DNA of 43,943 nucleotides. It comes from Clostridiales bacterium (GTDB lineage Bacteria; Bacillota; Clostridia; Christensenellales; Borkfalkiaceae). This document shows, in pieces, positions 36,187-39,203 of this stretch. Location: contig SVHP01000007.1 in NCBI GenBank assembly GCA_015055735.1, forward strand, positions 1-43,943, given 5' to 3'. The notes under the pieces were generated by a model that worked only from the letters and a program-made list of their open reading frames with translations, ran no database searches and was not told where the DNA came from. Position 1 is the first letter of the stretch; each line of letters starts with the position of its first letter. A program made the translations under genes and the position numbers.

Positions 36187-36894
36187 TTAATCATCACTAA
36201 AGCCACTTAAAAAAGCTTTGAGTTCATTTACATTATCATACTTGCTAATTAAAGTTTCCCATAAAGAGAAGATATCCTCTTCTCCTAAAACTTCTAATAT
36301 GCTTTGACCGTTTTTATTAACGTAAGTGTGTATAGGTGCAGTTTCTAAAAAAATTTTTAATTTAATCAAATATTCTCTGTCTTTATAATTTGTTTGCTCC
36401 CAAATCTTTGGATTATTTATCCATTCAGGTTCAAAAAATTCCTTGCGATAAATTTTCTTTTCACTGAGGAGTTTTTTTAATAGTAAAACAGTATCATAAT
36501 CAAGAATTTTTTCTTGCCTTGCTACCATCTTCGCCAACTCCAAAGATTCTATGCTTTCGTCTTCAACTTGCGATATATACGCCTGAGATATTTCTTCAAT
36601 TAAAATATCCTTAAAATTCTCTTCAAGGAACGAAAATGTATTTTCTCCCAACAATCGACACGTATAACTATCTTTTGAAGTGCTTAATTTATTGTATGCT
36701 CTTTTTTTAAAATAAAATGAATTAAGTTCAGTTTCATCTCTTTCGAACTTTTTCATCATTTCCCAAATAGCAGCCGCATCTTGTGTTGCGTCCATTTCAT
36801 CTAGAGCGTCTCGTTTTTCATTGCTTTTAATACAATTTTCCTCTGTTTTAGCAACTTGTTGTGTGTTTTTCTTAAAAAAATTAAATAACCCCAT
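36187..36894 (-). CDS. Uncharacterised 235-aa protein
   Basis: Intact ORF, RBS AAAGGAG, no recognised domain; charged, probably helical. Confidence 0.75.
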   Translation of the reverse strand: MGLFNFFKKNTQQVAKTEENCIKSNEKRDALDEMDATQDAAAIWEMMKKFERDETELNSFYFKKRAYNKLSTSKDSYTCRLLGENTFSFLEENFKDILIEEISQAYISQVEDESIESLELAKMVARQEKILDYDTVLLLKKLLSEKKIYRKEFFEPEWINNPKIWEQTNYKDREYLIKLKIFLETAPIHTYVNKNGQSILEVLGEEDIFSLWETLISKYDNVNELKAFLSGFSDD

Positions 36895-36933
36895 CTCATT
36901 ACTCCTTTTTTATTAATTTTTACTTTTTATTAT

Positions 36934-36962
36934 ATATTAACTCATTTGAGTTTATTTGTCAA
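36934..36962 (-). promoter_or_regulatory. Putative sigma-A promoter of the 235-aa/58-aa operon with a palindrome in its spacer
   Basis: Minus strand TTGACA-N17-TAATAT; spacer contains most of AACTCAAATGAGTT. Confidence 0.65.
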
Positions 36963-36996
36963 GCAATTTGGGTTATTAAATTAACTCTTTTTAGTT
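36939..36996. promoter_or_regulatory. Three operator-like sites at 22-bp period in the divergent XRE intergenic region
   Basis: 36939 AACTCATTTGAGTT, 36961 AAGCAATTTGGGTT, 36983 AACTCTTTTTAGTT. Confidence 0.6.
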
Positions 36997-37028
36997 ATAT
37001 AATAAAACAAAAGGGGTAAATTATAAAT

Positions 37029-37313
37029 ATGGAAGTTTTAGAAAAAATAGAATTACTGCGAAAAGAAAAAGGTTGGTCAATAAACTACCTTGCAATGGAA
37101 AGTGGTTTAACGCAATCAACTTTAAACAATTTATATTCAAGAAATACCGAACCTAAAATATCGACGTTAAGAGCGATTTGTGGAGCTTTTGGAATTACTC
37201 TATCCGATTTTTTTAAGGAAGAAGAAAATAATGATGAACTTACAAGAAGAGTAAAAAGTTTATCAGAAGACAATAAAAAAGCACTATTACAAATAGTAAA
37301 GAACTTAAAATAA
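37029..37313 (+). CDS. XRE-family helix-turn-helix transcriptional regulator
   Basis: LRKEKGWSINYLAMESGLTQSTLNNLYSRNTEPKISTLRAICGAFGITLSDFF. Confidence 0.93.
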   Translation: MEVLEKIELLRKEKGWSINYLAMESGLTQSTLNNLYSRNTEPKISTLRAICGAFGITLSDFFKEEENNDELTRRVKSLSEDNKKALLQIVKNLK

Positions 37314-37346
37314 CTAAACACTCATCATTAGATGAGTGTTTAGTTT
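37314..37346 (+). terminator. Rho-independent terminator of the XRE gene
   Basis: Perfect 13-bp stem CTAAACACTCATC/GATGAGTGTTTAG, ATTA loop, TTTT tail. Confidence 0.85.
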
Positions 37347-37366
37347 TGGATGCAGTACAACCATTC

Positions 37367-37609
37367 ATTGCCGTTAGGCAATATGTCGCAACAAGTTTGA
37401 TTTTGTTAACAACTATTCCCAAAAAGTGTTGCTAGTAGAAATTGTGTTGTTTCCGACTGCGACCTTTTCCCGTACCGTCGCCGTCAAATAAAGTGTGGAA
37501 AATTTTAATTTTACACAGAGCCGTTAGGCTTAAAAGTTTAGTTATAAACTTTTACTTTATTAAATATTGATTTATGGTTTATAGAGTTCACTCTAATAAA
37601 CTATAAATC
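37367..37609. other. Hairpin-rich non-coding block between the XRE and recombinase genes
   Basis: Hairpins at 37367-37382, 37455-37485, 37494-37517, 37519-37530, 37531-37554, 37569-37609; no credible ORF. Confidence 0.7.
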
Positions 37610-37710
37610 TAAAGGCAAATATTTTCTGCCCCTGACAGACGCATCTACGCTATCGCTACGATGGTTTCGCTTTCGCTCAACCGAACGCAAGTTCAAGTCT
37701 TTCGCCAAGA

Positions 37711-37749
37711 GCAAACAAAAAGAAAAGCACCCATTTTTATGGATGCTTT
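37711..37749 (-). terminator. Rho-independent terminator overlapping the recombinase stop codon
   Basis: Minus strand AAAGCATCCAT-AAAA-ATGGGTGCTTT followed by TCTTTTTG. Confidence 0.75.
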
Positions 37750-39203
37750 CTTTTTGGCTGAGCGTGTTGCTCAAAATTCGAACTTTCTAATTCTTCTAGC
37801 GCTATATTCTCTTCTTTTCCGTTTACGTTGTATATTATCTTTATTTTATCGTCATAAACGAATATCTTATTTATAAACGTATCAATTAGTTTTGCTTTAC
37901 CTTTTGTCGTTGAAACGTCTATTTCTTTAAAATGCAATAGTGCCATTTTGAACTCTTTAACCGATAAAATCGGCATCTTTATTTTCTCTTTTGCAAGCTC
38001 TTCTTCAAAAAGCCGTTTTTGCGCTTCTAGTTCATTTAACTTTTTCATTAGACTTTCGGAAACTGCACCTAACTGAATTGCCTTAACGATATTATCTATC
38101 TCTTTTTGTTTCTCTACTATCTGCTTTTCTAGTTTAGGAATAATAACGTTCTCTTCTTCTTGCAAGTTGTACAATAATTCAGCAAGGTAGTTTATAATCT
38201 TTTCGTCGTTGAGAAAAGCCATAGTCTTTTCTATAACGAAGTTTTCTATCTTTTCCTTACCTATCTTCTTTTTATCGCAAGCCTTTTTTCTTGCCCTGTT
38301 GCAAGCGTAATATTGATAAACTTTTTTAGTCCCACTCGTACCAGAATAAGCAGTCATCATCGCTTCGCACTTACCACAAAATAATTTGGTTGTTAATAAG
38401 TATGCGTTTTCTTCGCTTTTAGCGGCTGGCGTAAACGAATTCTTTTTTATCGTTTCTTGAGCTTTTTCAAACACGTCTTTCGAGACTATTGCAGGCATAC
38501 CATCTTCCACAAAGACACCAGAATGATTAAATTCGCCTATGTACGCTCTATTAGTAAGCATATGTCGCATACTGCTATATGCAATAGGTTTGCCGTTGCT
38601 TCTGCGTATTCCCTTTTCTTTTAAGTAATTGAATATGTGCTTTATAGTTTTACCTTCTGCACACATATTAAAAATCATTATAACAATAGGCTCTTCATCT
38701 TCGTTAATAGTATAATGCCCGTCAACTATCTTATAGCCAAAAGGAACGTTTCCACCATTCCATTTTAGTTTAAGTGCATTTTCTTTAAAACCACGCTTAA
38801 CGTTTTGAGAAAGATTAGCAGAATAATACTCCGCCATACCTTCTATCATAGACTCTAAAATTATACCTTCTGGTCCGTCCGAAATATTTTCTTTAACCGA
38901 TAAAACTCTAACATTATTCTTTTTAAGGGTGTGTTTATAAAAAGCGGCGTCGTATCTATTTCTTGCAAAACGGTCTAACTTCCAAACGAGCACGGCATCA
39001 AAAAATTTTTTATTGCTATCGGCAATGAGTCTTTGAAAATCTGGTCTATCGTCAGTCTTTGCAGAAAAAGCCCTATCAATATACTCACCGATAATTTCAA
39101 TATCATTATATTTTGCGTACTCATAACATTCACGAAGTTGCCCTTCGATACTTTCTTCACGCTGATTATCCGAACTATACCGTGCGTATATTACCGCTTT
39201 CAT
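37737..39203 (-). CDS. Site-specific serine recombinase (resolvase + recombinase + zinc ribbon)
   Basis: VIYARYSSDNQREESIEGQL; VLVWKLDRFARNRYD; zinc ribbon CGKCEAMMTAYSG..YYACNRARKKACDKK; coiled-coil C-terminus. Confidence 0.95.
   Translation of the reverse strand: MKAVIYARYSSDNQREESIEGQLRECYEYAKYNDIEIIGEYIDRAFSAKTDDRPDFQRLIADSNKKFFDAVLVWKLDRFARNRYDAAFYKHTLKKNNVRVLSVKENISDGPEGIILESMIEGMAEYYSANLSQNVKRGFKENALKLKWNGGNVPFGYKIVDGHYTINEDEEPIVIMIFNMCAEGKTIKHIFNYLKEKGIRRSNGKPIAYSSMRHMLTNRAYIGEFNHSGVFVEDGMPAIVSKDVFEKAQETIKKNSFTPAAKSEENAYLLTTKLFCGKCEAMMTAYSGTSGTKKVYQYYACNRARKKACDKKKIGKEKIENFVIEKTMAFLNDEKIINYLAELLYNLQEEENVIIPKLEKQIVEKQKEIDNIVKAIQLGAVSESLMKKLNELEAQKRLFEEELAKEKIKMPILSVKEFKMALLHFKEIDVSTTKGKAKLIDTFINKIFVYDDKIKIIYNVNGKEENIALEELESSNFEQHAQPKRKHP

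Follow-up and report, generated by a model that had tools for sequence, protein, structure and literature searches.

What is the gene-less block of hairpins that lies beside a large serine recombinase gene in this Clostridiales genome? In the window, i.e. the whole 43,943-nt stretch of DNA analysed, an earlier note had recorded a series of dyads between the terminator of an XRE-family gene and that of the recombinase, and had proposed either a structured small RNA or recombinase attachment or binding DNA with paired half-sites. Rechecking on the window sequence placed the dyads exactly where they had been reported, and the block indeed holds no credible ORF. The hairpins first concerned, with no strand given for any of them, are:

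37367-37382, the first hairpin reported, helix P4 of the 5S-type element described below: perfect 6-bp stem, cGTTAg loop on the plus strand
37494-37517, further hairpin, no homologue found
37519-37530, further hairpin, perfect 4-bp stem with GTTA loop, no homologue found
37531-37554, further hairpin, perfect 10-bp stem with GTTA loop, no homologue found
37569-37609, further hairpin, an imperfect long stem, no homologue found

The number of hairpins in 37344-37736 is by itself only mildly above that of shuffled sequence (7 stems of at least 5 bp versus 3.2 in dinucleotide shuffles, with 68 of 1000 shuffles reaching 7). The three GTTA loops, which the earlier note had singled out, are far above chance (0.011 expected; 0 of 1000 dinucleotide shuffles), and the 393-nt single strand of the same region folds with z = -6.4 on the minus and -5.2 on the plus strand, no shuffle being equally stable. 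No Rfam family matched the block at the gathering threshold, tRNA being the only Rfam match in the window, and permissive E-values returned chance matches only on the block; Rfam matches in the related loci were 5S, tRNA, LSU and tmRNA.

Comparison with relatives showed that what had been described as a single back-to-back block is instead two separate elements with other hairpins between them, the hairpins at 37494-37609 finding no homologue in the relatives' DNA by DNA search. The block holds two partly decayed and apparently displaced members of a class of elements that, read in the direction of the host gene, share one layout: an intact host gene, a terminator, X′, hairpins with conserved linkers, X, and another terminator. 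Here X repeats the host 3′ end in direct orientation (in tRNA hosts some 18 nt that start at T-loop position 58/59 and run through CCA), and X′ is a short inverted copy of the host 3′ part (the T-arm for tRNA, a helix I strand for 5S) that can pair with X and so close the fold.

The first element was found through a DNA search of 100 relatives, in which 37344-37476 was matched in loci adjoining 5S rRNA genes. Its parts in the window are:

37348-37479, minus strand, 5S-type trailer element, an orphan copy without an adjacent 5S gene (covariance model R1, 128 bits)
37348-37362, minus strand, X, copy of the 5S rRNA 3′ end, GGTTGTACTGCATCC (5S has GGTTGTTGCTGCATCC)
37385-37390, minus strand, 3′ strand of helix P3, TGCGAC, pairing with 37458-37463
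37458-37463, minus strand, 5′ strand of helix P3, GTCGCA
37467-37487, minus strand, a stretch like the 3′ part of 5S rRNA, TTGACGGCGACGGTACGGGAA versus TTGACTGGAGACGGTCCGGGAAGA, a suggestive likeness only
37312-37345, no strand given, terminator hairpin common to the XRE gene and the 5S-type element, 15-bp perfect arms

This copy is the sole strong covariance-model match in its own genome and has no 5S gene adjoining; a similar terminator follows a 5S gene on contig C43 of that genome. Among the relatives, a recurring order was observed, i.e. a 5S gene (verified with Rfam), a terminator, a unit of ~150-250 bp ending in a copy of the 5S 3′ end (GGTNGTTGCTGCATCC), and another terminator, with the units single or in tandem (two in G003, G005 and G027; three in G113) and partial extra copies in G007, G018 and G022. 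About 16 genus genomes carry the unit (the covariance model matched 18 of 44, weak or partial matches included), and units also stand behind 5S in G056 and G113 of other genera of the family; a third family match outside the genus (G172) is weak, with no 5S shown, and the order-level sample outside the genus yielded no 5S-type unit. Some assembled 5S ends are followed by no unit, by an inverted copy of that end alone or by a decayed unit (G000, G012, G043, G011, G037, G031, G041 and G036); as many drafts break at rRNA operons, absence of the unit is often uninformative. No Rfam family matched the 5S-type unit.

Some other arrangements were seen near these loci. A tRNA-like sequence, TGCCCCTTAGCTCAGTAGGTAGGGTGAGCGTAACAGTTCACACC..., with an intact 5′ half and T-arm and an odd middle, lies between 5S and tRNA-Asn in L119 (G000:C25, about 560-655) and L006 (G036:C7, about 160-400); it is conserved in the two species and repeated in G036. 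In L113 (G028:C16, 350-1420), an opposite-strand gene separates the first 5S unit from a decayed second one, as if inserted in the array. Downstream of 5S in L073, L075 and L140, from three species with different genes beyond, a common motif CCCACAAAAATTNTCGAAGA sits at the outer border of the array.

In the 5S-type fold, helix P3 surrounds a variable inner hairpin, and P4 comes next. The dyad reported at 37455-37485 is present, but the pairing proposed for it is not the conserved one, which in relatives joins GTCGCA (37458-37463 here) with TGCGAC (37385-37390) around the variable inner hairpin. Elsewhere P3 reads GCCGC/GCGGC or others, P4 differs among relatives in both stem and loop while its pairing is retained, and 13 of the 16 pairs of the structure have changes on both sides. 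The covariation score was 0.379 versus 0.124 ± 0.017 in shuffles and at most 0.078 for slid structures, on an alignment fitted to the covariance model and hence biased towards that structure; a MAFFT/RNAalifold alignment recovered P3 only, owing to misaligned P4 loops, and the model-based one recovered P4. Conservation and compensatory changes among the relatives of 37348-37479 support the structured-element half of the earlier proposal.

The outer ends of the 5S-type unit can pair as well, and many units carry the 5S end in inverted form at their 5′ end (GCAACNACC), where N tracks the genome's own 5S. GNA or GNNA loops cap 28 of 61 hairpins on the strand opposite 5S versus 1 of 61 on the 5S strand (background about 5% per strand), and folding z-scores are lower on the opposite strand in 18 of 21 units. 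Only 3 of 19 GNNA loops are GNRA, so the preference does not follow the usual RNA rule; in DNA, both GNA and GNNA loops are known to be stable. Together, the loop and folding biases suggest folded DNA, or an RNA of the opposite strand.

The second element adjoins the recombinase gene and is of a tRNA type (family T1). Its features and its neighbours are:

37626-37755, minus strand, tRNA-type (T1) trailer element with a terminator, hairpins in its interior and a tRNA-Asn 3′-end copy
37626-37640, minus strand, X, copy of the tRNA-Asn 3′ end, GTCTGTCAGGGGCAG
37642-37663, minus strand, T1 core hairpin CATCGTAGCG-ATA-GCGTAGATG, the same core as behind tRNA-Glu, -Gln and -Gly elsewhere
37716-37755, no strand given, terminator as behind tRNA-Asn and 5S in relatives, matches 91-98% identical
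37755-37760, minus strand, CAGCCA, the last bases of a tRNA-Asn gene, at the recombinase 3′ end
37737-39203, minus strand, large serine recombinase (Pfam Resolvase, Recombinase, Zn ribbon)
37029-37313, plus strand, XRE-family repressor, with an 87% identical protein behind the 5S element in G010

The T1 pattern TCGTAGCGNNAGCGTAGA occurs six times in 5 of 44 genomes, the reversed control giving none. Five of the six sites lie behind a tRNA gene (tRNA-Glu in three cases, tRNA-Gln and tRNA-Gly in one each), and after each comes a copy of that tRNA's 3′ end; the sixth is that of the window. The terminator at 37716-37755 is found behind tRNA-Asn in G036 and G016 too.

Relatives of the window's recombinase are located at tRNA 3′ ends. 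Cut tRNA 3′ ends were found in L310, L312 and L324 and, adjoining a recombinase, in L318, and in L049 a recombinase ORF runs into a tRNA; serine-recombinase elements of this group thus seem to use tRNA genes as integration sites. As an observation of its own, serine recombinase ORFs or element ends reach tRNA genes or their CCA ends in L049, L310, L312, L318 and the window (37737-37760), an arrangement that suggests tRNA-targeting serine recombinases. The recombinase probably displaced the tRNA-Asn host of the second element.

Such adjacency, with a similar arrangement at L046 and L318, is what would speak for the block being binding or attachment DNA of the neighbouring recombinase. This half of the earlier proposal is not supported: the 5S-type unit sits nearly always behind 5S rRNA and is not linked to this recombinase, being present in genomes (G010, G007) with no detected relative of the enzyme, and the closest recombinase homologues outside the genus have no such flank. 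We therefore consider it most improbable.

The XRE gene and its promoter region are common to the window and G010, where they stand behind the 5S element. Short XRE genes with a divergent partner were likewise seen behind 5S elements in the window (36187-37313), L073 (12307-13860), L074 (482-1499) and L077 (1119-2127); the partners are unrelated while the XRE proteins of the window and G010 are 87% identical, a cassette-like arrangement. The idea that the divergent genes form one family was rejected, as they are mutually unrelated.

To avoid selection bias in judging how common such elements are, 623 kb of the own genome with 22 tRNA genes was sampled, counting copies of a tRNA's own 3′ end within 170 nt and outside any other tRNA. 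Seven of the 22 genes are followed by such a copy (reversed control, 0 of 22), and with three more genus genomes added the count was 10 of 44 versus 0 of 44, 44 tRNAs being a small sample. The copies start at T-loop position 58/59, i.e. between GTTCRA and NTC, and usually extend through CCA.

A T-loop start recalls the tRNA attB of mycobacteriophage Ms6, which lies in the T-loop (PMC1762012). As with tRNA-targeted integrative elements of that kind (PMC1762012), the part of the tRNA that begins at the T-loop and reaches its 3′ end is found again downstream as a direct repeat, and the host gene stays intact. The elements could then be scars of conventional elements integrated at tRNA genes: an integrase would have crossed over in the T-loop, X would be the 3′ end that it displaced, and the bulk of the inserted element would have been lost later. 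Serine-recombinase elements do sit at tRNA 3′ ends here. Unlike integrative elements, however, members of the class are about 110-260 bp long and gene-less, carry an inverted, host-matched X′ that scars leave unexplained, share a hairpin interior among many tRNAs, form tandem arrays and stand behind 5S too. Neither integrase gene nor cargo was found between the repeats, the roughly 110-230 nt there leaving no room for a gene, and at the sensitivities used neither the window block nor the family cores matched phages, plasmids or viral contigs. The uniform small sizes and the conserved interiors common to many tRNAs are likewise left unexplained by scars, and such an origin seems improbable to us.

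The largest tRNA family is T2/T3. Its covariance model (for which, as for the others, E-values are rough) has matches in 34 of 44 genus genomes, with as many as 12 in one genome and 9 in that of the window. Thirty loci were fetched. In 23 of them a tRNA (Pro, Ser, Met, Gln, Leu, Lys or Glu) stands on the same strand shortly before the element, and 19 of these 23 elements close with the 3′ end of that tRNA. Among the seven others, most have a split or cut tRNA end ahead of the element. A 520-kb sample including four non-genus genomes gave the model no match, so T2/T3 outside the genus is unproven. A third host class, tmRNA, was also considered, but the sole match was weak (G035, E = 0.004) and lacked a copy of the tmRNA end, and was treated as chance.

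Host matching was scored on 26 elements within 80 nt of a tRNA, with X compared over 15 positions. X showed 1.15 mismatches in 15 with its own host and 6.47 with shuffled ones (the lowest shuffle giving 5.23). For X′ the mismatches numbered 0.15 and 1.20 (lowest 0.73). X′ and the pairing part of X are intact even where the remaining X has decayed.

Shared interior cores recur both behind many different tRNAs and across dozens of species, and the linkers between hairpins are conserved in sequence. These two findings bear on an origin by replication template switching in highly transcribed genes, in which X - X′ - X would be a by-product (a small inverted triplication, its stems perfected by switches) with neither function nor mobility. 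Small inverted triplications are described (PMC13334657), switching can give rise to hairpins and preserve them, with paired changes (PMC8794818), and quasi-palindrome mutations arise in highly transcribed DNA (PMC3820800); the elements resemble the products of the first two in the order X - X′ - X and in matched stem changes. They differ from them in that unrelated host genes, and different species, have interiors in common; separate local events could not produce this, and the linker conservation argues the same way. As the whole story template switching has a slim chance only, though it could help shape the stems.

The leading rival is that the element is a functional RNA part of the host transcription unit, i.e. 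a trailer backing up termination or 3′-end processing, or a read-through small RNA, spread by duplication and kept by selection. The strong covariation of T2/T3 (0.486 versus 0.179 ± 0.013) and of the 5S type fits it, as do the conserved linkers, the preservation of X′ and its partner bases while other X bases decay, and the wobble pairs of T2/T3, which favour the tRNA strand (about 19 GU versus 2 AC once two columns misregistered in the T3 rows are set aside). The terminator that separates host gene from element speaks against it, and so do the opposite strand favoured by the 5S type and the variable presence of elements between species (compared as drafts, one per species, so that differences are at species level) and between the tRNAs of one genome. 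As the two types favour different strands relative to their hosts, the acting molecule may be RNA or single-stranded DNA. We regard this rival as possible, though rather doubtful.

Short imperfect palindromes with structure kept over sequence, arrays and a folded single strand are known from integron attC sites, which have core boxes (RYYYAAC ... GTTRRRY) at their ends and one gene cassette per site. The present elements share the palindromes, the structural conservation, the arrays and possibly the folded strand; unlike attC they have no cassette per site and their ends follow the host RNA gene. No attC core boxes were found at the site ends, GTTAGGC at 37373-37379 lying inside P4 as a mere loop-and-stem variant that varies among members. 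REP/BIME sequences and IS200-IS605 ends are non-coding palindromic repeats with single-stranded DNA hairpins and guide-like end pairing, and the likeness extends to non-coding palindromes, possible ssDNA hairpins and guide-like pairing at the ends. The present class differs in being tied to stable-RNA 3′ ends, host-matched and low in copy number, with Y1 usually absent. A Y1 transposase as mobiliser was rejected since it does not co-occur, being found in 6 of 44 genomes and absent from the unit-bearing G010, G007, G009, G022, G005 and others.

From the architecture, the host matching, the covariation, the tandem copies, the species differences in presence and the one core behind many tRNAs, the reading that we favour is that of host-matched, mobile mini-elements at stable-RNA 3′ ends, with the window copies as displaced relics; we give it about an even chance of being right. 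A common interior, fairly uniform sizes, tandems, terminators that usually differ before and after the copy, and different element families at one tRNA in different species are as expected from insertion of small elements. Counted against it are the rarity of the Y1 transposase, no other mobilising enzyme having come to light, the lack of matches in phages, plasmids and viral contigs, and the disagreement of the 5S type and T2/T3 on the folding strand; with one genome per species compared, no insertion or excision was seen inside a species. As a class of roughly 110-260 bp non-coding elements directly behind tRNA and 5S rRNA genes, they look undescribed, no description having been found in the one literature collection searched.

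On this mobile-element reading, the elements would enter stable-RNA genes at their 3′ ends, keep the host gene intact by regenerating its end, and act via a folded single strand that pairs with the target through its X′. As X′ can pair with X, it should on the same grounds pair with the host gene too, which makes a choice of host by pairing an attractive idea. In a more specific form, which is distinctly unlikely as it stands, a programmable, gene-less folded strand (RNA or ssDNA) would use X′ as a guide that pairs with the T-arm (tRNA) or helix I strand (5S) of its target, direct its own insertion at the 3′ end of the target gene via an enzyme encoded elsewhere, and adopt the 3′ sequence of that target, the gene thereby staying functional and the element becoming host-matched. 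The window copies may then have lost their hosts, the tRNA-Asn by being cut at its CCA end by the serine-recombinase element and the 5S-type copy by some event that separated it from its rRNA operon.

If the mobile-element reading is true, roughly one in three of this bacterium's sampled tRNA genes would carry an undescribed, host-tailored structured element, the host matching of X and X′ would give a clear and testable prediction on target choice, and the puzzling hairpin blocks beside recombinases in such genomes would be accounted for. Even if the elements are cis-acting RNA, a trailer that is conserved and covaries throughout a genus, behind both its tRNA and its 5S genes, would be a new feature of stable-RNA biology.
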